Source of the DNA: Methanobacteriota archaeon
GTDB lineage: Archaea > Methanobacteriota_B > Thermococci > Methanofastidiosales > Methanofastidiosaceae
Direction: 5' to 3'
DNA length: 36,568 nucleotides
NCBI GenBank assembly: GCA_023622545.1
Contig: JAMNZA010000042.1
Span: 1 to 36,568, forward strand
Both the position numbers and the translations under genes were made by a program. Shown one piece after another: positions 3,327 through 35,402 of the stretch (its first letter is position 1; the number at the start of each line of letters is the position of its first letter). Under the pieces are notes generated by a model, which saw only the letters and a program-made list of their open reading frames with translations, did no database searches and had not been told where the DNA came from.

Positions 3327-3473
3327 ATGTCAAAAGTTGAAGTATCTATCAATGGGAAGGATATAGACTTGAATCCTTTTGTTGAAGAGTTCATTAAAAA
3401 TACTGTGAAAGGAATGGTGTCTACCCTTAGAGGGTATGAGAAGGGAAAAATAAAAATTGAGATTGAGGATTAA
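3327..3473 (+). CDS. Small conserved archaeal-type protein, 48 aa (not in the supplied ORF track)
   Basis: ATG...TAA gives MSKVEVSINGKDIDLNPFVEEFIKNTVKGMVSTLRGYEKGKIKIEIED. Purine-rich gaaaggg RBS upstream; stop directly abuts the next gene start at 3475. Confidence 0.7.
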   Translation: MSKVEVSINGKDIDLNPFVEEFIKNTVKGMVSTLRGYEKGKIKIEIED

Positions 3474-3474
3474 A

Positions 3475-3966
3475 ATGGTATCCGTATTAATAGTCTATTA
3501 CACCAAATCTGGGAACACTAAAGAAATGGCTAACATGATAGCTGCTTATATAAGAAACGAGAATGTAGATGTTGAAGTGAGAGATGTTTTTGATACAACT
3601 CCTGAATACTTATTAGAATACGATGGGATTATACTCGGGTCTCCAACTTATTATGGGGATATGGCAGCTGAAATGAAAGAACTAATAGATAAAAGTGTCA
3701 AATACCATGGTGAGCTTTCCGGTAAGCTTGGGGGTGCATTTACATCAAGTGCATATATCGGAGGAGGAAATGAAACTACTCTTTTATCTATACTAAAAGC
3801 TATGCTAATCCATGGAATGGTAGTTGTAGGTGTTCATAATGCCGACCACTATGGCCCTGTAGCAATTGGTTCACCTGATGAGAGAGCAGAAAAACAATGT
3901 AGAGTCTATGCTAAAAAATTCGCTGACACCCTAAAAAGTCTTAAAGGATTCGATATAGTTGATTAA
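3475..3966 (+). CDS. Flavodoxin / NAD(P)H:quinone oxidoreductase (WrbA-like) family protein
   Basis: LIVYYTKSGNTKEMA FMN phosphate-binding motif, GSPTYYGDM, TSSAYIGGGNETT. ATG at 3475 preferred over the upstream TTG-type extension in the ORF track. Confidence 0.8.
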   Translation: MVSVLIVYYTKSGNTKEMANMIAAYIRNENVDVEVRDVFDTTPEYLLEYDGIILGSPTYYGDMAAEMKELIDKSVKYHGELSGKLGGAFTSSAYIGGGNETTLLSILKAMLIHGMVVVGVHNADHYGPVAIGSPDERAEKQCRVYAKKFADTLKSLKGFDIVD

Positions 3967-4841
3967 TGATGATAGTACCTGATAACTATGGAGGTCTTGA
4001 AGACCAATTCTCTAATTATGAGAATTCGTATTTTGTTGTGTTGCCTGCCCCTCTTGAGAAGACCGTTTCTTATAAAGGCGGTACATCCCTAGGGCCAAAA
4101 GCTATCATAAATGCAAGTCAGAATATGGAGCTTTTCGATGAGGAATTTTTTGTTTCTACTTGTACCATGGGCATCCACACAAAAGATGAAATTAACTGTA
4201 AGCAAGAAATGGAAATTGTAATGCAACAAATAGAAGAAGAATCTTTTAAGATTTTTAATGATAATAGATTTCTATGTGTTCTTGGTGGTGAGCACTCTGT
4301 TTCTCAGGCCCCCATCAAGGCTGCAAACAGGGCCTTTGACAATCTCTCTGTCCTACAATTTGATGCACACCTTGATCTTAGAGACGCTTACTTAGGAGAC
4401 AAATACAGTCATGCTTCTGTAATATCACGAGTTGAAGAAATATTGCCCATAGTCCAAGTTGGTATAAGAAGTTTCTCAGAAGAAGAATATGAGAAAATAA
4501 AAAATGGCAGTTACAATATTTTCTATGCCAAGGACATTCACGACAATAAAACTTGGTTTAATAGAGCAATTGAAAATCTATCTGAAAATGTATACATAAC
4601 ATTTGACATTGATGCATTTGACCCTTCATTAATACCTGGAACTGGAACACCTGAGCCTGGAGGACTATCGTGGTATCTAGTATGCGACTTTTTAAAGGAA
4701 GTTTTTTTCCATAGAAATGTTGTTGGGGTAGATATTGTTGAGGTAGCACCCCAAGAAAATTCTACAGTTTCAGAATTTGTTGCCAGTAAGCTACTATACA
4801 AAATGATGACGTATAAGTACATAAAAATGAATGATATTTAG
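3966..4841 (+). CDS. speB: Agmatinase / ureohydrolase family protein
   Basis: Mn-binding motifs GGEHSV, QFDAHLDLRD, TFDIDAFDPSLIPGTGTPEPGG; overlaps the upstream stop by 1 nt. Confidence 0.87.
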   Translation: MMIVPDNYGGLEDQFSNYENSYFVVLPAPLEKTVSYKGGTSLGPKAIINASQNMELFDEEFFVSTCTMGIHTKDEINCKQEMEIVMQQIEEESFKIFNDNRFLCVLGGEHSVSQAPIKAANRAFDNLSVLQFDAHLDLRDAYLGDKYSHASVISRVEEILPIVQVGIRSFSEEEYEKIKNGSYNIFYAKDIHDNKTWFNRAIENLSENVYITFDIDAFDPSLIPGTGTPEPGGLSWYLVCDFLKEVFFHRNVVGVDIVEVAPQENSTVSEFVASKLLYKMMTYKYIKMNDI

Positions 4842-5037
4842 GCCTATTATTATATAACATAGTTCTAAATTGGCTATAATATGCAAAATCTTATATTTAA
4901 AATATATTTTTTTAATTATTTTTAACTTATTTTTTGTAGTTTAAAATAAAAATAAACAAAAGATTTTTAAAGCATATTTTATTCACTTAAAACAACTACC
5001 CTATAAAGGTAAGAGAAATAATTTTGGAGGAAAATAA

Positions 5038-5523
5038 ATGTTGAACTTAGAGTCTTTAATATCAATTCTTGAAGCTTGTAAAAAAAACAATATTGCAGAG
5101 TTGGTAGTCAGAAAGGATTCCGTTGAAATTAGAACTGTTGTTGCCGGTGGAAGCGGCGCTGTACATGCTGTTCAGCCTCAGATTTCCATGCCTGCAGCAG
5201 TAACGTCAGCAGGATCCGTTGAAGCAGCACCAGCAGCCGAAGAAAAGGCAGCACCAAAGGCAGCTGCAGCATCAAACTTGATTGAATTAACAGCCCCAAC
5301 GCCTGGAGTAAGTTATGTATACCCAGGAACTACAATTGATAAGAAACCCCTTCCAAAAGAAGGAGATATAGTTGAAGCTGGACAAGTTGTAGCACTTGTT
5401 GAAGCAATGAAAATGTTTAATGAAGTTACAGCACCAAGAAAAGCAAAAATTGCAGAGATTAAAGTAACAAATGAAACTCTTGTCAAAGTCGGACAGGTCC
5501 TAATGCTTCTCGAGCCTCTCTAA
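5038..5523 (+). CDS. Biotin carboxyl carrier protein (AccB-like)
   Basis: AccB-like N-terminus (LISILEACKKNNIAELVVRKDSVEIR), Ala/Pro-rich linker, biotinyl domain with EAMKM (Lys codon 5410-5412); RBS ttggaggaaa upstream. Confidence 0.9.
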   Translation: MLNLESLISILEACKKNNIAELVVRKDSVEIRTVVAGGSGAVHAVQPQISMPAAVTSAGSVEAAPAAEEKAAPKAAAASNLIELTAPTPGVSYVYPGTTIDKKPLPKEGDIVEAGQVVALVEAMKMFNEVTAPRKAKIAEIKVTNETLVKVGQVLMLLEPL

Positions 5524-5551
5524 ACTGGGTAATCCCTACTAAGGTGATAAT

Positions 5552-7297
5552 ATGGAAGATGTTAACTACCTAAGGGATATATTCCAGACACCCAGTAAAG
5601 GTGCAGGAATACCCTATGATGATAAGATACAGAGAGCAAAAAAGGGATGGGACAAAAAAGGAGAGGACACGGAAAAAAGACTTTCCGAAGCAAAAAAGTT
5701 CGTTAAGACAGGAACAAAGATTATTGAACCAGCAGATGCGATTGCTCTTTTGGAAACAGTCATAAAACCAGGTGACAGAGTTTCCATAGAGGGAGACAAT
5801 CAGAAGCAGGCAAACTTTCTTGCAAAATGTTTAGCAAAAGTAAGCCCTTCTAAAGTAAATAATATTCACATGGTACAATCTGTCTTGGCTTTACCAGAAC
5901 ATCTTGATATTTTTGAAAAAGGTATTGCCTCAAAAGTAGATTTCTGTTATTCTGGTCCAGTTGGAGCAAGACTTGCAAACATGGTCATGAGTGGAAAGAT
6001 AACAATAGGTGCTATCCATACCTATATGGAATTGTTCGCTAGAACCTATCTTGACCTCACACCAAAAGTTTGTTTAGTAGCAGCAAACGCAGCAGATAAA
6101 GAAGGAAATCTCTACACAGGATTTAACACAGAAGAAACCCATTCAATAATTGAAGCAACAAAATTTAGAAAAGGTATTGTAATAGTACAAGTCAACCAGA
6201 TAGTCAACAAGGTACCACGTGTTGATATCCCAGGAGGCTGGGTAGACTTTATTATACCAACTGAAGAGCCATACTACATTGAGCCACTCTTTACAAGAGA
6301 TCCTAGATTAATTACAGAATCCCAGATATTTATCGCTATGATGGCTTTAGTCGGAGTCTATGCTAAATATGAAGTTAAAACACTAAATCACGGTATTGGT
6401 TTTAACACAGCAGCAGCCGAACTTTTATTGCCCACATTTGGAGAAGAAATGGGATTGAAAGGAAAGATTTGTACTCACTGGGCATTAAACCCACACCCAA
6501 CAATGATACCCGCTATAGAATCAGGATGGGCAGAATCATTCATGCCATTCGGTAGCGAAGTTGGTATGGAAAAATACATCATGGCAAGACCAGATATATT
6601 CCCAGTTGGCCCAGATGGAACAATGAGATCAAACAGAGTAATGTCACAGGCAGCTGGACACTACGCAGTTGATGCATTCTTTGGTTCAACTCTACAGATA
6701 GACCAATTTGGAAACAGTGCAGCAGCAACAGCAGGCAGAATACCTGGATTCGGTGGAGCTCCCAACATGGCATGTAACGCCCCTGGAAGAAGACACCCAT
6801 CAAAGGGATGGTTGCTAGCTTCTCAAGAAGACGGAATGAGAGAATCATTAATCGGTCCAATAGCTAGAGGAAGAAAACTAGTCGTTCAGATGGTTGAAAC
6901 ATTTGGAGAAGGAATGGCACCAGTATTCGTAGAAAAACTAGATGCATTCAAACTTCAAGCCCAAGCTAAATTCCCAATACCCCCAATAATGATTTACGGA
7001 GACGATATCACACACATAGTAACTGAAGAAGGAATAGCATACATACACAAATGTAAATCACTAAAGGAGAGAATGGACGCAATTAAAGCAGTAGCAGGCT
7101 ACACACCATTAGGACTAGCAGCCGATGACTCACAAACTAAAAAGCTAAGAAAGGCGGGAATAGTTTCACTTCCTGAAGATTTAAACATCTCATTTAATGA
7201 TGCAAAAAGATCAAAACTTGCTGCAAAGAGCATGAGTGAACTTGTAGAATGGTCTGGAGGTTTATACGAACCACCAGTCAGATTTAGAAATTGGTAA
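5552..7297 (+). CDS. Malonate decarboxylase alpha subunit-like acetyl-ACP:malonate ACP transferase (MdcA/MadA)
   Basis: Full-length 581 aa protein with CoA-transferase-like segments ([29 protein letters not shown]-independent [26 protein letters not shown]), embedded in a malonate-type cluster. Confidence 0.85.
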
Positions 7298-7308
7298 GGA
7301 GGATTAAT

Positions 7309-8670
7309 ATGTTTAAGAAAGTTCTTGTTGCAAATAGAGGAGAAATCGCTGTAAGAATAATCAGGGCATGTAAAGAAATGGGAATCAAGACAGTTGCTGT
7401 TTACTCTGATGCTGATAAAAACGCACTCCACGTTAAACTAGCTGATGAAGCTGTTAACATTGGACCTGCCCCATCAATTAAAAGTTACTTGAACATGATG
7501 AATATCATAAACGCCGCTATTGTCACGGGCGCAGAAGGTATTCACCCAGGTTACGGATTTCTTGCAGAAAACTCCAGATTTTCAAAGCTTTGTAAAGCCA
7601 ATGGAATCAAATTCATAGGCCCCAGTGCAGAATCAATTGACGCAATGGGGGACAAAGCAACAGCTAAAGATACAATGAAGAAAGGTGGTGTACCTGTTAC
7701 ACCAGGTTCAGATGGAATTATAAAAACAATCGAGGAAGCCGATAAACTCGTAAAGAAGATCGGTTGCCCTGTCATCTGCAAAGCCTCAGCAGGCGGCGGT
7801 GGAAAGGGTATGAGACTTGTCAAGTCTGAAAAAGAGTTAGAATCTGCTTTGAGATCTTGTCAAGCTGAAGCACAGGCTGCATTTGGAAACCCAGATGTAT
7901 ATATTGAGAAATACATCGAACAACCAAGACACGTCGAAATACAGATTATTGCGGATCAGTATGGAAACGCTATATACCTTGGAGAAAGAGATTGTTCAAT
8001 CCAAAGAAGACATCAGAAGCTTGTCGAAGAAGGACCTTCGCCTGCAATATCCCCTGAGATTAGAAAGAGGATGGGAGAGGCCGCAGTAAAGGCAGCTCTT
8101 GCAGCAAACTATGAAGGTGCCGGAACGGTAGAATTCCTTTTCAACGATAAGGAAAATGACTTCTACTTCATGGAGATGAACACAAGGGTCCAAGTAGAAC
8201 ACTGCGTATCTGAGATGATCACAAACATCGATATAGTAAAGACAGGTATAAAAGTAGCAGCTGGAGAAAAACTACCATATGCACAGAAGGATATCCAAAT
8301 AAGGGGACATGCAATTGAATGCAGAATCAATGCAGAAGACCCAAATACATTCGTTCCTTCTCCAGGAGATATAGACAAACTCATTCTACCAGGTGGTCCT
8401 TTTGTCAGAGTAGATACAGCATGTTACCAGGGATACCAGATCCCCCCATTCTACGACTCTCTAATAGCAAAATTGATTGTCTGGGGAGAAGATAGAAATG
8501 AGGCAATTGACAGGATGTACAGAGCTCTCGATGAATTCATTGTTGAAGGTATAAACACAACAATTCCATTCCACAAAAAAGTCATGAAAAACCAGGTATT
8601 TAGAGGAGGAGTATTCCACACCGACTTTATTGATAAACACATGGATAAGTCAAAGAACGGAGGGGACTAA
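7309..8670 (+). CDS. accC: Biotin carboxylase (AccC-like, ATP-grasp)
   Basis: [75 protein letters not shown]. Start at ATG 7309 (preceded by taaggagg). Confidence 0.93.
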
Positions 8671-8994
8671 ATGGCTTTAACTGAATTAAATTATGAATTT
8701 AAGCCTGAAACCCCTAAAACAATTAAGGATGACTGGTCCCACATCGGCGTTGTTGCCAGCGGGGATCTTGAAGTCTTGATTGAAAAGGAAAATGCCCTCA
8801 AAGGGAAGACTAAAATCCACATATTAACGACAGTAGTTGGTTTTGACGACGTCTGGGAAACAGTTGTAAAGAAGTTCATTGATAAAACTGGACTTTCAGG
8901 TGTCAGAGTAAGCATAAATGACAACGCAGCAACACCCGCAGTAGTTATTAGAAGGCTACAGCAGGCAGTGGACAACGGAGGAGGTCTCCAATAA
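8671..8994 (+). CDS. Malonate decarboxylase acyl carrier protein (MdcC/MadE-like)
   Basis: 107 aa; GVVASGDLEVLIE matches the CitD/MdcC prosthetic-group attachment motif with Ser30 (codon 8758-8760); position between the transferase and carboxyltransferase genes. Confidence 0.85.
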   Translation: MALTELNYEFKPETPKTIKDDWSHIGVVASGDLEVLIEKENALKGKTKIHILTTVVGFDDVWETVVKKFIDKTGLSGVRVSINDNAATPAVVIRRLQQAVDNGGGLQ

Positions 8995-9003
8995 GGTGAT
9001 TCT

Positions 9004-9969
9004 ATGAAAATAAATTGGGATGATCTTCAAAGTAAGAGCTTTTATCAAGCAACTGCAAGAGAAAGAGCTTATGGAATGTTAGATAAAGATACCTTCAAAG
9101 AGTTACTTGGCCCAAGAGATAAAATGACAAGTCCACACTTGTTAATTCTTGGAGAGGCAGTTGAATTTGATGATGGTATTACAGTAGGTATTGGTAAGAT
9201 AAAGAAACACCCAGTATTTGTCGTTTCACAGGAAGGAAAATTCGTCGGCGGTGCACTTGGTGAAGTAAACGGAGCCAAGATGGCATATACACTAAAACTA
9301 GCCTTGAAAACCTATGAAAAGATGAAGGAAAAATACGGCACAGTCCCTGACGACAGAAAACCAATCTGTATAGTCTCATTTGACTCTGGTGGAGTTAGAC
9401 TTCATGAAGCAAATGCAGGACTTCTAATGCATTCTGAATCCATGGAGACAATATGGGAGCTTCAAAACAAGGTTCCTTACATTGCAATCACTGGAAGCAC
9501 AATAGGTGCCTACGGTGCACAGGGATTCGTATGTTTGAGTGCGGATGTTGTCATTGCAAATGACTTTGGTAGAATTGGTCTTACAGGTCCAGAAGTTATT
9601 CAACAGGAAGTTGGAAAGGACGAATTTGATGCATCAGACAGAGCCCTCATATGGAGGACAATGGGTGCCAGATCAAAATACATCCTTGGCGACGTTGATT
9701 ACTTGATAAAGGACACAATTGGAACATTCAGAGACACAATCGTTAATATGGTTGACGAGCCAATGAGCAAGATTTCAAAGACAAGAAAGGTGGGTTCACC
9801 ACAGCTTGTTGAGGAAAATCTTGAGGTAGTCAAACTTGCTGCTGAGAAGAAGATAAAAGATTCAAAGGACCTTTGGAAGATTTACGGAAATGAAAATGTT
9901 GATGAGATTCCAGAGATGTCACAGGAAAAGTTTCTTTCAGTTGTTAAAAGAAGACCAAGGAGGCATTAA
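9004..9969 (+). CDS. Malonate decarboxylase beta / carboxyltransferase subunit (MdcD/MadC-like)
   Basis: Crotonase-fold carboxyltransferase: ARERAYGMLDKDTFKELLGP, FDSGGVRLHEANAGLL, TGSTIGAYGAQGFVCLSADVVIA, GRIGLTGPEVIQQEVGKDEFDASDRALIWRTMG. Confidence 0.88.
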   Translation: MKINWDDLQSKSFYQATARERAYGMLDKDTFKELLGPRDKMTSPHLLILGEAVEFDDGITVGIGKIKKHPVFVVSQEGKFVGGALGEVNGAKMAYTLKLALKTYEKMKEKYGTVPDDRKPICIVSFDSGGVRLHEANAGLLMHSESMETIWELQNKVPYIAITGSTIGAYGAQGFVCLSADVVIANDFGRIGLTGPEVIQQEVGKDEFDASDRALIWRTMGARSKYILGDVDYLIKDTIGTFRDTIVNMVDEPMSKISKTRKVGSPQLVEENLEVVKLAAEKKIKDSKDLWKIYGNENVDEIPEMSQEKFLSVVKRRPRRH

Positions 9970-10845
9970 ATGATTAAATCTTTAATTGGAAAGACAGATG
10001 AGGCAATACAACTAATCTTTGACAAAGATACTTTTCAGGAGAACGTTATTGGAAATACCCGCCTTGATAAAGACCTTGCACCACCAGTAATGGTTGGTCA
10101 GGCCATGATCGACGGTGAGGTATGTTCAGTTCTTGCAAACAACTCAAAGAGACCAAATCCAAGATTTAGAGTCGTTTACAGTGGAATCTTGGGAATGGAA
10201 GAAGCATACAAATTCTCACAGGCAATGTACGCAACAATCGAAGCAGACAAAGAAAGGCCAAAAGACAAAAAGAGACCAATAGTCTTACTAATCGATACAC
10301 CCGGTAACAGTCCAGGAAAAATTGAGGAAATCGTCGGAATGACAAAGGGAACAGCTTCCTACCAGTTCGCAATTGAAGACGCTAGACTTGCCGGTCACCC
10401 AGTAATTGGATTGATTATAGGCAGAGCAGTCAGCGGTGGATTCTTGTGTCACGGACTTCTATCGGACAGAATTCTTGCACTTCCAGCTGAATACGGTACA
10501 ATCGTACACGTCATGCCAACAACAAGTATTGCAGTTATTACAAAGATCCCTCTAGAGAGACTAAATGAGCTTGTAAAAACAAACCCAGTATTTGCTTCAG
10601 GTGCCGAATACTTCTATGACCTCGGTGGTATAGATGAGATGGTAAAGAGACCTGAAGACATGAGAGCAGCTATCATTAAATCAATAAAGGAAGTCAGAGC
10701 ACTCAGAAAACAGGGTAAGGAAGACCAGCTCGGAATTTGGCACAGAGGAGTAGTCGGTGCAGAAAGAGGCGGCAGACAGAAGAGAATGGAAGCCATCAAG
10801 AAGATGCAAGAAGAATACGAAAAGATGTTACCTGAACTAATTTAA
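9970..10845 (+). CDS. Malonate decarboxylase gamma / carboxyltransferase subunit (MdcE/MadD-like)
   Basis: PIVLLIDTPGNSPGKIEEIVGM, GRAVSGGFLCHGLLSDRILALPAEYGTIVHVMPTTSIAVITK; immediately follows the beta-like subunit (TAA/ATG adjacent). Confidence 0.87.
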   Translation: MIKSLIGKTDEAIQLIFDKDTFQENVIGNTRLDKDLAPPVMVGQAMIDGEVCSVLANNSKRPNPRFRVVYSGILGMEEAYKFSQAMYATIEADKERPKDKKRPIVLLIDTPGNSPGKIEEIVGMTKGTASYQFAIEDARLAGHPVIGLIIGRAVSGGFLCHGLLSDRILALPAEYGTIVHVMPTTSIAVITKIPLERLNELVKTNPVFASGAEYFYDLGGIDEMVKRPEDMRAAIIKSIKEVRALRKQGKEDQLGIWHRGVVGAERGGRQKRMEAIKKMQEEYEKMLPELI

Positions 10846-10882
10846 TAATTTTCCTTTTTTTTTAAATTTTTGAGGAATTGCA

Positions 10883-12001
10883 ATGGAAAAAAAAATAAAT
10901 CCGTTTTTTGAAGAATTAAAAGATAGTGTTGAAACCTTTTCTACTGTTCCATCTTTTGATGAGATGAAAAGAAGAACTCTTGCTGACAAGGGTATAAACG
11001 GACCCACAGCAGCACATGTCGTGGAAGAAGTACACACACCACTTAATTATGCTTATATCACTTTCACCACAGGCACAACAGCCTGGCAAAATATCGTGGG
11101 AATCACACCAAATGAAAAAGAGTATAGAAAAGAAGTTGGTAAAAATGCCTTGAGAATGGCAGGTGTGAAAGAGGGCCACAAAGCAATGTTTTGCTACCCA
11201 CCATTATTAAATGCAATAACAAGAGGGGCATTAGAAGAGCTAGGTGTAACGTGGACATTTCTCACAAAATCATCTAGGGATTCTTTTCTTATGGATCTTT
11301 ACTTTAAAGAGCCTACAGTAATTTTTGGTGAATCGTCATTTCTAAAGTGTGCATTAAATGATGCCATAAGATTGAACTTGGTTGATGACTTACCAAAGGT
11401 TGACATTGTAAACTGTATTGGAACCCCTCTAGACCTAGAAGCAGTAGATACCATACGCGAAATACTAGGCGCAAGAGTAAATGATATTTATGGGACTCAG
11501 GAGTTTGGCTGGATTACAATGAACGGAAAGCCAGTAAGAGAGGACATTGCTTTTGTTAGATCTGATGTGGGTCAAGAGTTTAAAGAGGCGGTTGTTGGAG
11601 GGCTACCAACTGGAGACAGTTTCCCAGTAGTTGATTCAGGTCACGTCCTCGATAAGGACGGTAAAATAATAACATACATGAGGAAGAGAACTCAGCCTGA
11701 CTATGAGATCTATGTTAGAGAAACTACACTGTCCGCATTTCAGACAATTGAAAGGGCATGCAGAAGTATCCTAAGAATAAAATCAAAGGTAGCAAAGGTA
11801 ACTGAGGATGTTGTACTTAACTCAGATAGAACTGTCCTTGAGCTTAAACCATCAATAATACCAAAAGGGTATGAAGAAAATAATGAGCCAATTCTCATAG
11901 AAGGCCCAACTAAGACCAAGATGTTTGACCTACTTGTTCAGGCTCAGCTAGATTATCAAACTTTAAGTGTCACAGACCCTTGCTGGATTAAAGGAAGGTA
12001 A
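10883..12001 (+). CDS. ANL-superfamily AMP-forming acyl ligase, probable acetate:[malonate decarboxylase-type ACP] ligase (MadH-like)
   Basis: P-loop-like YITFTTGTTAWQN, YGTQEFGW adenylate motif, 372 aa; located between the carboxyltransferase subunits and the prosthetic-group transferase gene. The specific substrate is inferred from context. Confidence 0.65.
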   Translation: MEKKINPFFEELKDSVETFSTVPSFDEMKRRTLADKGINGPTAAHVVEEVHTPLNYAYITFTTGTTAWQNIVGITPNEKEYRKEVGKNALRMAGVKEGHKAMFCYPPLLNAITRGALEELGVTWTFLTKSSRDSFLMDLYFKEPTVIFGESSFLKCALNDAIRLNLVDDLPKVDIVNCIGTPLDLEAVDTIREILGARVNDIYGTQEFGWITMNGKPVREDIAFVRSDVGQEFKEAVVGGLPTGDSFPVVDSGHVLDKDGKIITYMRKRTQPDYEIYVRETTLSAFQTIERACRSILRIKSKVAKVTEDVVLNSDRTVLELKPSIIPKGYEENNEPILIEGPTKTKMFDLLVQAQLDYQTLSVTDPCWIKGR

Positions 12002-12009
12002 AATAAAAT

Positions 12010-12657
12010 ATGATCTTCCAGAGACACGACCTAGTTTTTGCAGACTGGAAAAGCATCGATACTTCAGTAATTAAAAATGAGGATTTTAGGAATCTTATTA
12101 TTCAAAGCAAGATACCCGGGATTGTTAGAAGGGATGAAAAAGACGTAACAGATGGGGAAAATTATTACACTGAAAATGAGAAAGTGTTCATTGGATTTGT
12201 CCACCCGGTAACTGTCCAGGGCAGAAGGCTTCGATTTGGCTCATCTATCCAAGGAAATAAAATTACTAAGTTGATATCCCCTTATGAAGTATCTAACTTT
12301 GAATTTGAGGCAAGAACACCATCACTAAAGGCGTTGACAGATATAAGGCAAAGTTATAATGTAGGTGTTTGGGGATCGGCATCTTTAGAGATTGTAACTG
12401 AATACCCTTACACTCACGACATGTCTGACCTTGATCTTATTGTTAAGAATTATCAACCTGATGTCCTGATTGAATTATTATCCAAATGCAATGAGCTTGA
12501 ATCTTCATTTGGTATCAAAATAGACGTCGAAATATACCTTAAAAATGGGTACGGCATAAACCTTAAAGAGTATGTTTCCGAGAGCGATACATTGCTAGGC
12601 AAAGGACTAAGGGATGTTATACTAATTAAAAGAAAAAGTGTTGAGGCATATCTATGA
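12010..12657 (+). CDS. mdcG: Phosphoribosyl-dephospho-CoA transferase, malonate decarboxylase holo-ACP synthase (MdcG-like)
   Basis: RHDLVFADW N-terminus, nucleotidyltransferase signature GVWGSASLEIVTEYPYTHDMSDLDLIV, RGLRFGSSI-like RLRFGSSIQGN. Confidence 0.83.
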   Translation: MIFQRHDLVFADWKSIDTSVIKNEDFRNLIIQSKIPGIVRRDEKDVTDGENYYTENEKVFIGFVHPVTVQGRRLRFGSSIQGNKITKLISPYEVSNFEFEARTPSLKALTDIRQSYNVGVWGSASLEIVTEYPYTHDMSDLDLIVKNYQPDVLIELLSKCNELESSFGIKIDVEIYLKNGYGINLKEYVSESDTLLGKGLRDVILIKRKSVEAYL

Positions 12658-13505
12658 AAAAAGTTGACATATTGGGCGAGCTTGCAACAAGAAGCATCTT
12701 ACTTGAAGTATCATCACACCCAAAACCGGGGCTTGTTACACCGTTTTCACAAGGCGCCCACAGGGATATGAACTTCACACTATTTATGAAAAGCACTGCA
12801 GTATTGAGCCAGGGATTTAAAGAAGTTTCAAACTTTGGTTACAACTATAAAGGTGACCTGGAGAAAATGCTGCCCCCTCTAAGAAAGCTAGGCCTCGATG
12901 TTGAAGAGAGGATGTTTAAGGTTACAAATGGCGTCAATACACAAAAAGGGCTTATATTCCTGTTTTATCTTATCCTGGGATCATCTGGTTACCTATTGAG
13001 TAAACGTAGACTGTCACCAAAAAATGTTTCTTCTTCAGTTTCAAAGATAACTAGTGGCATCACAAAAAAGGAGCTTGCACCTGTAAAAAAAAGTAAGAAA
13101 GCCCTTTCAAAGGGAGAGAAAACTTTTGTGGCCCATGGCATCACGGGAATTAGAGGGGAGGTAGAAAAGGGCCTTCCTTCCGTCATGCAAATTGGATTGC
13201 CTGAATTCAAAAAGGCATATGAAACAACAAATGACATTAATAAATCATCACTCCATGCACTTATTGCGTTGATGTCTTCTGTAGAGGACACTAACATCAT
13301 CTCAAGAAATGGAATTGATGTTTACTATGAAGTTCAAAAAAAGGCTTCAGAGATCCTTGAAGTTGGGGGAGTTTTGACACCAGTTGGATTATCAAAGATA
13401 ATAGACCTTGAAATGGAATTTCTTAAAAGAAATATTAGCCCTGGCGGGTCTGCAGACCTATTGAGTGCAACACTCTACTTTTATTTCTTAGAAAAGGAGA
13501 TATAG
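12654..13505 (+). CDS. mdcB: Triphosphoribosyl-dephospho-CoA synthase (CitG/MdcB-like)
   Basis: EVSSHPKPGLVTPFSQGAHRDM, GVNTQKGLIF, GIRGEVEKGLPSVMQIGLP, ISPGGSADLLSATLYF; 4-nt ATGA overlap with mdcG. Confidence 0.88.
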   Translation: MKKVDILGELATRSILLEVSSHPKPGLVTPFSQGAHRDMNFTLFMKSTAVLSQGFKEVSNFGYNYKGDLEKMLPPLRKLGLDVEERMFKVTNGVNTQKGLIFLFYLILGSSGYLLSKRRLSPKNVSSSVSKITSGITKKELAPVKKSKKALSKGEKTFVAHGITGIRGEVEKGLPSVMQIGLPEFKKAYETTNDINKSSLHALIALMSSVEDTNIISRNGIDVYYEVQKKASEILEVGGVLTPVGLSKIIDLEMEFLKRNISPGGSADLLSATLYFYFLEKEI

Positions 13506-13516
13506 AGGGGTAATAT

Positions 13517-13624
13517 TTGACAGACGCTCAAACACTTATACTTGCAATCTTATTGAGGATCTCCATACCAGTTATCCTAGTCGTGGCAATATTTTATTTC
13601 TACAATAAGAAGAGAAAAAATTAA
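13517..13624 (+). CDS. Small single-TM protein, about 35 aa (TTG start; not in the ORF track)
   Basis: gaggggtaat RBS then TTG ACA GAC...: MTDAQTLILAILLRISIPVILVVAIFYFYNKKRKN*; hydrophobic helix with basic C-terminal tail, 11 nt after the mdcB stop. Confidence 0.45.
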   Translation: MTDAQTLILAILLRISIPVILVVAIFYFYNKKRKN

Positions 13625-13929
13625 TCCCAAAACTCTTCAATTAGTATCGATGCAAGGAAACATAACCCCGAGTTTTTTATCCCCCAATATCTCTCTATCT
13701 GTGGCCTAGCAGTGTCCAATAGCTTCTTTAACCGTTCATTGATCTCGGCATACTCATCGCTTGTTAGTATGGTCACAGCAACATGCCTAGAAAGAAACTG
13801 CATAAGCGTTTTATCTTCGATATGATCCTCTATCTCCTTAATTTTTATGTTGTACTCTGACGAGTCTATCGCACATATTATTTCAAAAATTAAATTCTTT
13901 ATAGCACTAGAGGATATATCGTTTGCCAT
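13621..13929 (-). CDS. Hypothetical protein, 102 aa
   Basis: Intact ORF in an otherwise non-coding slot; no recognised domain. Confidence 0.5.
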   Translation of the reverse strand: MANDISSSAIKNLIFEIICAIDSSEYNIKIKEIEDHIEDKTLMQFLSRHVAVTILTSDEYAEINERLKKLLDTARPQIERYWGIKNSGLCFLASILIEEFWD

Positions 13930-14023
13930 AATAATCTACAATATTCAAGCACATGAGTTTATTAATTTTATTATTAATTAGGCACAGGGATATTATTATA
14001 AATTCTAAATTCGATTTAATATC

Positions 14024-14716
14024 GTGGCGAAAATTAAAATCTGTTTTGCACTTGTTTTGCTTTTACTCTTAGTAACAGAATGCTGCATATTCACTGAAGA
14101 TGACTTCTTCCCAGACAAATCAGATGAACAAAATTCTAGGTATACAGAAAGCGAAATAGAATACTTCGAAGAGATTGCCTTGGGCACTGAATACGGTAAT
14201 ACGGACCAAGTTATAAGAAAATGGAACAACGATATAAAAATAAAAGTCAACGGTGCGCCAACACAAAAGGATCTCGATGCCCTAGATAAAGTTGTATCTG
14301 ATATAGATTCTATAATTGGAGAAAAGATACCCATTTCTATAGTTGAAGAAAACGCTAACATTTCCATAAATTTTGTTCCAACTTCAGAGTTTTCAATATG
14401 CGAGGCAGTTCCAGGTAATTATGGATATTTCAATTGCAAGTGGGAAAACAATCTGATATACAAATGTGACATCTGCATTGCGACAGATATCTACCAGGAA
14501 GAAAGGTCACACATGATAAGAGAAGAAGTTACCCAGTCTCTTGGGCTGATGAACGATTCGGAGAAGTATAGAAACAGTATCTTCTTCCAGGGGTATTCTG
14601 CAACACAAAAGTATGTAGAGATAGATAGAAAATTGATTGAGATACTCTACATTGATGAAATTAAACCTGGAATGAGGAAAAAAGAAGTAGAATCTATTTT
14701 AAGGGATATCTCCTAA
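14024..14716 (+). CDS. Secreted/lipoprotein of unknown function (DUF2927-like)
   Basis: GTG start; N-terminal signal with Cys (VTECCIF); IREEVTQSLGLMNDSEKYRNSIFFQGYS resembles the conserved core I associate with DUF2927. Confidence 0.6.
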   Translation: MAKIKICFALVLLLLLVTECCIFTEDDFFPDKSDEQNSRYTESEIEYFEEIALGTEYGNTDQVIRKWNNDIKIKVNGAPTQKDLDALDKVVSDIDSIIGEKIPISIVEENANISINFVPTSEFSICEAVPGNYGYFNCKWENNLIYKCDICIATDIYQEERSHMIREEVTQSLGLMNDSEKYRNSIFFQGYSATQKYVEIDRKLIEILYIDEIKPGMRKKEVESILRDIS

Positions 14717-34552: not shown

Positions 34553-34882
34553 ATGAAAAAAATGATAACTATATTTGTTGCAGTTGCATTGATAGCATCA
34601 TTTGGTGTCGGAGCTATTGCCGGTGCCAATGAAGATGCTTTTGCAAACGCAGTAATTGACGAGCAGGCGCAATTAGCTTTGGAAAAGGCAGCAGTAGAAT
34701 TTGCCAACGGCAACGATACTGAAGGCCTTGCAGCAGAAGAGGACGCAACGAACAACTTTGGTAAGACAAAACTTGGATTCCACAAGATATCTGGTGCAGT
34801 TATTTCTGCATCATATTACTGGAAGGCTAAACCTGGTACTTGGATAAGAACTCACAAGCCACGTCCTTCAGCGGTGGCCTGA
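34553..34882 (+). CDS. Small secreted protein, 109 aa, tandem paralog 1
   Basis: RBS aaggaggtaatact; signal peptide MKKMITIFVAVALIASFGVGAIAGA; near-identical to 35067-35402 up to ASYY. Confidence 0.75.
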   Translation: MKKMITIFVAVALIASFGVGAIAGANEDAFANAVIDEQAQLALEKAAVEFANGNDTEGLAAEEDATNNFGKTKLGFHKISGAVISASYYWKAKPGTWIRTHKPRPSAVA

Positions 34883-35066: not shown

Positions 35067-35402
35067 ATGAAGAAAATAATAACCTTGTTTATTGCAGTTG
35101 CATTACTCGCATCATTTGGCGTCGGCGCTATAGCCGGTGCAAACGAGGATGCTTTCGCAAATGCAGTAATTGATGAAGAAACGCAAATCGCTTTGGAAAA
35201 AGCGGCAGTTGAGTTTGCAAAAGGCAATGACACAGAGGGTCTTGCAGCGGAAGAGAATGCGACAAACAACTTCGGTAAGACAAAGCTCGGGTTCTTGAGA
35301 ATATCTGGCGCAGTTATAACAGCATCATATTACAGACCTTGTGCAAAAGCTGGAATGGTACATAAGCCAATTGGAACAGTTGTGTGCGCAACATTTCTCT
35401 AA
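35067..35402 (+). CDS. Small secreted protein, 111 aa, tandem paralog 2
   Basis: RBS aagaggtaatacc; signal peptide MKKIITLFIAVALLASFGVGAIAGA; paralogous to 34553-34882 with a divergent C-terminal tail containing two Cys. Confidence 0.75.
   Translation: MKKIITLFIAVALLASFGVGAIAGANEDAFANAVIDEETQIALEKAAVEFAKGNDTEGLAAEENATNNFGKTKLGFLRISGAVITASYYRPCAKAGMVHKPIGTVVCATFL

Follow-up and report, generated by a model that had tools for sequence, protein, structure and literature searches.

A MAD-derived gene cluster with an AccB/AccC biotin carboxylase pair in Candidatus Methanofastidiosum, a probable ATP-dependent acetyl-ACP carboxylase

Introduction

The closest described relatives of the gene cluster reported here are the malonate decarboxylases, namely the biotin-dependent MAD system of Malonomonas rubra and the biotin-independent Mdc systems of Klebsiella, Acinetobacter and Pseudomonas. 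In MAD, carboxybiotin is decarboxylated by MadB (PMC7274780). This study concerns nine genes at positions 5038–13505 of a 36,568-nucleotide stretch (the window; contig JAMNZA010000042.1 of assembly GCA_023622545.1) from a genome of the uncultured Candidatus Methanofastidiosum, which belongs to the order Methanofastidiosales of the methanogen class WSA2. The cluster resembles the M. rubra system in having MadA, MadE, split MadC and MadD, MadH, prosthetic-group enzymes, and a biotin carrier adjoining madA. It differs in the absence of MadB, which is also missing from a second family of the order, and of MadM; in addition, its carrier is an AccB of the acetyl-CoA carboxylase (ACC) type instead of the short MadF, and an AccC gene lies between madA and madE. 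The carboxybiotin-handling partner appears to be a biotin carboxylase (BC) instead of MadB, and on balance the cluster probably encodes an ATP-dependent acetyl-acyl carrier protein (acetyl-ACP) carboxylase that makes malonyl-ACP and, through MadA, possibly malonate, that is, a MAD system turned round. A literature search found no description of a MAD-type system with a BC, although the WSA2 genome paper (10.1038/ismej.2016.33) lay outside that search.

Results and Discussion

A preliminary description of the window had reported nine co-directional, tightly packed genes, and this was confirmed: the coordinates of the open reading frames were verified, intergenic gaps range from −7 to +37 bases, the quoted motifs are present in the translations, and profile searches of the nine proteins matched the reading assigned to each gene, as listed below.

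5038–5523, + strand: AccB-type biotin carboxyl carrier protein (BCCP), 161 aa, in the madF position; Biotin_lipoyl/BCCP profiles, biotinylation site VEAMKMFNEV
5552–7297, + strand: MadA/MdcA, acetyl-ACP:malonate ACP transferase; Mal_decarbox_Al PF16957, 889 bits; TIGR01110, 869 (cut-off 789)
7309–8670, + strand: AccC-type biotin carboxylase, between madA and madE; TIGR00514, 734 bits (cut-off 627)
8671–8994, + strand: MadE/MdcC-type ACP with VVASGDLEV, which includes the prosthetic-group serine; TIGR03130, 104 bits (cut-off 84), and PF06857
9004–9969, + strand: MadC, carboxyltransferase (CT) beta (AccD-like) subunit; TIGR03133, 302 (cut-off 278)
9970–10845, + strand: MadD, CT gamma (AccA-like) subunit; TIGR03134, 250 (cut-off 237)
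10883–12001, + strand: MadH-type ANL ligase, presumed acetate:ACP-SH ligase; weak AMP-binding match, 48% identity to bacterial MadH
12010–12657, + strand: MadG/MdcG, phosphoribosyl-dephospho-CoA transferase (holo-ACP synthase); PF10620, 67.6 bits
12654–13505, + strand: CitG/MdcB, triphosphoribosyl-dephospho-CoA synthase; PF01874, 251 bits

The same searches found no OAD-beta/MadB gene in the cluster, which bears out the earlier observation that an AccB/AccC pair is wired into a MAD-like set without MadB. For AccC, the ATG at 7309 is a more likely start than the TTG at 7291 that opens the reading frame, since alignment to AccC starts at residue 7.

The origin of the cluster was examined against two bacterial MAD sets. 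On a Nitrospiraceae contig (L040, genome G115) lies a full MAD operon arranged as madL-M-B-F-A-E-C-D-H-G, with a 69-aa MadF (ESLKMEN) and, in the madH position, an ANL protein of 375 aa. The second set, which includes madB, is on a Geobacteraceae contig (L034, genome G116), where madH continues on contig C70 and is followed by an 80-aa biotin carrier. On L034, Mdc and MAD sets lie side by side (4090–7731 and 8713–14344), and its MadB shares only 31% identity with that of L040. The core order A-E-C-D-H-G of the L040 operon recurs in the archaeal cluster, which lacks madB, madL and madM and has AccB at the madF position and AccC inserted between madA and madE. The gene product at 10883–12001, which had been described simply as an ANL ligase, is 48% identical to the product at the L040 madH position and is therefore better named MadH, encoded by a regular MAD gene whose product in M. 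rubra is the acetate:ACP ligase.

In the phylogenetic trees, the window MadC and the MadC proteins of the two bacterial MAD sets formed one group, separate from every Mdc homologue, among them Pseudomonas MdcD (support 100/100), and the window MadD grouped with bacterial MadD, split from the sampled Mdc proteins (100/100), with Pseudomonas MdcE unplaced on a long branch. The MdcA tree placed the archaeal MadA with neither MAD nor Mdc. Indels common to archaeal and bacterial MadC/MadD were not used as proof, since Pseudomonas MdcE has a similar insertion. Homologous alpha, ACP, beta and gamma subunits, MdcB and MdcG are shared with the Mdc systems, and the MdcA active site is conserved: MadA matched Pseudomonas MdcA (5vit) at 689 bits, with Arg341, Tyr134, Asn258, Ile261 and Arg228 retained. 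PMC5534430 assigns roles in catalysis and in the binding of malonate by Pseudomonas MdcA to these residues, and also gives the role of Ser25 in Pseudomonas MdcC. Unlike Mdc, the archaeal cluster has a biotin carrier, a BC, and a MadH-type ligase instead of MdcH, and its MadC is closer to MAD. Membership in Mdc was rejected on the grounds of AccB/AccC, MadH and the MadC tree. Based on the splits in the MadC and MadD trees and the similarity of MadH to the L040 madH product, sequence comparison identifies the cluster as MAD-derived (the biotin-dependent set madA-E-C-D-H-G plus citG). Concerning its relatives, no further MdcA was found in the 246 genomes surveyed in the phylum of G115, and a close MadH occurs in one of 395 genomes in the phylum of G116.

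The AccB/AccC pair is of the bacterial AccABCD type. AccB aligned with the E. coli BCCP of the BC–BCCP complex 4hr7 over residues 5–157, and the alignment with E. coli AccB showed an N-terminal segment resembling the BC-docking segment as well as the thumb, both of which are absent from MadF, MmdC and the carrier of propionyl-CoA carboxylase (PCC). All 15 E. coli BC catalytic and binding positions checked are identical in AccC. When the window was compared with its genus mates, the cluster genes were under strong purifying selection, and the ratio of nonsynonymous to synonymous substitution rates (dN/dS) of AccC, 0.02–0.03 against four genus mates, was among the lowest in the cluster; AccC is therefore not a relic. 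A biotin protein ligase was found in 18 of the 19 genomes searched. In view of the 15 identical BC positions, the EAMKM motif, the docking segment and the thumb, AccC is predicted to be functional and AccB to be biotinylatable. Likewise, the split CT has the AccD/AccA fold. Unlike in AccABCD, the CT is of the MAD type by sequence and comes with a dedicated ACP, an ACP transferase and prosthetic-group enzymes, and for this reason the predicted substrate is acetyl-ACP and not acetyl-CoA.

As the window genome is 68% complete, absences were judged on relatives. Among 115 genomes of the phylum, a full-strength MdcA/MadA profile match was obtained only in Methanofastidiosales of two families, the window's own (f1) and a second one (f3, sampled by five genomes that are 77–96% complete). 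In both families, the order bccp-madA-accC-madE is kept in the genomes whose contigs span it, and madC-madD-madH-madG-citG follow in the same order where contigs reach. This conserved order together with purifying selection indicates that the arrangement is not due to chance. In one genome (G009) the cluster is split over contigs C89 and C106, and the apparent absence of BC there was discounted, since AccC presumably lies in the gap between them.

A single OAD-beta protein, 50% identical to the L040 MadB, was found in all eight f1 genomes searched; in the window genome it is encoded at G000:C85:7499-8554, within a methylmalonyl-CoA-decarboxylase-like (Mmd-like) locus. In f1, this OAD-beta (MmdB) locus comprises the mmdA CT, the mmdD delta subunit, mmdC and a second small carrier, and adjoins a family III CoA transferase; its positions are G000:C85:5758-11030 (L116) and, in another genome, G011:C1 (L120:7840-13113). 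These data bear on the published reading, ordinary malonate catabolism, in which MadA, MadE, MadC and MadD decarboxylate imported malonate to acetate, AccB/AccC are incidental, and the carboxyl group leaves either through an OAD-beta shared with methylmalonyl-CoA decarboxylase or as CO2 released without biotin. The subunit annotations by profile and the universal OAD-beta of the searched f1 genomes agree with such a catabolism. However, OAD-beta sits in f1 in a locus of its own with mmdA, mmdD, mmdC and the CoA transferase, few genes of the cluster are as constrained as AccC, and no MadM was seen in 19 genomes; together with the f3 data below, this makes malonate catabolism unlikely.

A PycB/OadA-type protein that contains a biotin domain but lacks a BC of its own was also found in all eight f1 genomes searched (in the window genome at G000:C25, L159:5026-6675), where it may be either a pyruvate carboxylase borrowing the AccC of the cluster or an oxaloacetate decarboxylase using OAD-beta. 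The f1 genomes searched have at most one BC, that of the cluster. Thus AccC, with or without AccB, might be a stray neighbour that serves another CT; the likeliest in f1 is the PycB-type protein, with which it would form pyruvate carboxylase. This explanation is very unlikely, since the biotin domain of PycB would leave AccB unneeded and since the f3 genomes, which have no PycB, keep the pair in place; sharing of AccC between PycB and MadC/MadD is possible.

On the f1 genomes alone, the BC could be the missing PycA and OAD-beta a shared MadB; the f3 genomes tell these possibilities apart. Neither an OAD-beta/MadB-like protein nor PycB was found in any of the five, and naive multiplication puts the chance that all of them miss OAD-beta because they are incomplete at about 1e-5. 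Even so, both AccB and AccC are retained in f3 at the positions within the MAD cluster that they occupy in f1. In four of the five, a further BC lies directly downstream, accompanied by a carrier and a PCC-like CT of its own, and in the fifth the contig ends too early. On the f3 contigs L117:7549-20000, L118:109-12000, L119 and L130, the MAD-like genes and the PCC-like set (CT, BCCP, BC) run in one direction, and on L117 the run also includes a family III CoA transferase. The downstream acyl-CoA carboxylase and this CoA transferase would fit propionate assimilation, which leaves malonate unexplained. Both archaeal acyl-CoA/propionyl-CoA carboxylase and methylmalonyl-CoA decarboxylase occur in genomes with the cluster, from which they differ in having a fused CT of about 520 aa, their own BCCP, a BC or OAD-beta, and no ACP.

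Because OAD-beta and PycB are absent and the PCC-like enzyme has a separate BC, the sole CT visible for AccB/AccC in f3 is MadC/MadD, and the sole visible carboxybiotin enzyme is AccC. An explanation of the BC by PCC was rejected, since the PCC of f3 has its own BC and BCCP, and a partnership with pyruvate carboxylase is possible in f1 only. The preliminary description had held that a MadB elsewhere in the genome, together with another CT accounting for AccB/AccC, would speak against a carboxylase. Half of this was found in the window genome, where OAD-beta is present but within the Mmd-like locus and a PycB/OadA-type protein is present without its own BC; neither occurs in f3. The f3 genomes therefore lend strong support to the proposed carboxylating acetyl-ACP carboxylase, whose product and direction we infer.

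In the simplest working cycle under this proposal, CitG and MdcG would build the phosphoribosyl-dephospho-CoA arm on MadE, and MadH would load acetate on the arm at the expense of ATP as a priming step. AccC would then carboxylate the biotin of AccB with ATP and bicarbonate, and MadC/MadD, in a putative complex with AccB, would transfer the carboxyl group to acetyl-MadE to give malonyl-MadE. Finally, MadA would swap malonyl for acetate, so that malonate would be released and acetyl-MadE regenerated. Malonate decarboxylation yields about −17 kJ/mol and ATP hydrolysis about −32 kJ/mol, and carboxylation would accordingly be the direction driven by ATP. The gene set would also permit malonate decarboxylation with AccC in reverse, so that ATP would be made from ADP and phosphate at the expense of carboxybiotin (substrate-level phosphorylation), with MadB replaced by another enzyme able to take the carboxyl group from carboxybiotin. 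We hold such a reversal for the least probable of the explanations considered, as one ATP per malonate would be uphill at ordinary concentrations (about −17 against +32 kJ/mol or more) and a MadM-type malonate transporter was not seen. Regarding this transporter, the built-in controls of the MadM search (PF03818; 19 genomes) were silent, yet the profile scores 384 bits on the L040 MadM; MadL was not searched genome-wide.

Several points weigh against the acetyl-ACP carboxylase. MadC/MadD works in the decarboxylating direction in MAD. In several genus mates, the Mmd-like locus is situated 10–15 kb away from the cluster, and its OAD-beta could take the part of MadB; in the window's genus, the PycB that lacks its own BC may use AccC, alone or jointly with the cluster. 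No consumer of malonyl-ACP or malonate was found in the genomes carrying the cluster; in agreement with the earlier description of an archaeon without type II fatty acid synthesis, these have no ketosynthase beyond weak thiolase-like matches, and a supply of malonyl-ACP to fatty acid or polyketide synthesis was rejected on this ground. Further, PMC6052691 repeats the suggestion of Nobu et al. 2016 that WSA2 may draw carbon from acetate, malonate and propionate, which would favour malonate catabolism.

Additional features of the locus are as follows. The structure model of MadH is of poor confidence (pLDDT 60.8) and matches the ANL fold, which is all that was taken from it. Directly upstream of the cluster (3457–4841) lie flavodoxin-like and agmatinase-like genes, a pair that genus mates (L025, L026, L028 and L045) have in the same place and that was not seen in f3. 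At 34553–34882 and 35067–35402, the window encodes two closely similar small secreted-looking proteins in tandem (109 and 111 aa) with diverging C termini, the first of which had no Pfam match. An Rfam scan of the window gave no match besides one tRNA.

Conclusions

The anatomy of the cluster and the f3 comparison favour a carboxylase. A more far-reaching form of the proposal, which we offer tentatively, is a dedicated system of one archaeal methanogen order that would use ATP to convert acetate and bicarbonate into malonyl-ACP and free malonate on an ACP with the phosphoribosyl-dephospho-CoA arm, with the Na+ pump of MAD replaced by an ACC-type AccB/AccC, to supply a pathway that requires malonate and has yet to be described in archaea. 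If true, a decarboxylase would have been reversed in evolution by swapping its carboxybiotin partner, from a Na+ pump to an ATP-driven carboxylase, and a biotin carboxylase would be acting on an ACP of the citrate-lyase/MAD type. It would also overturn the malonate-eating reading of this class of digester methanogens, which would instead make malonate or malonyl-ACP, for a purpose unknown in archaea without fatty acid synthesis.

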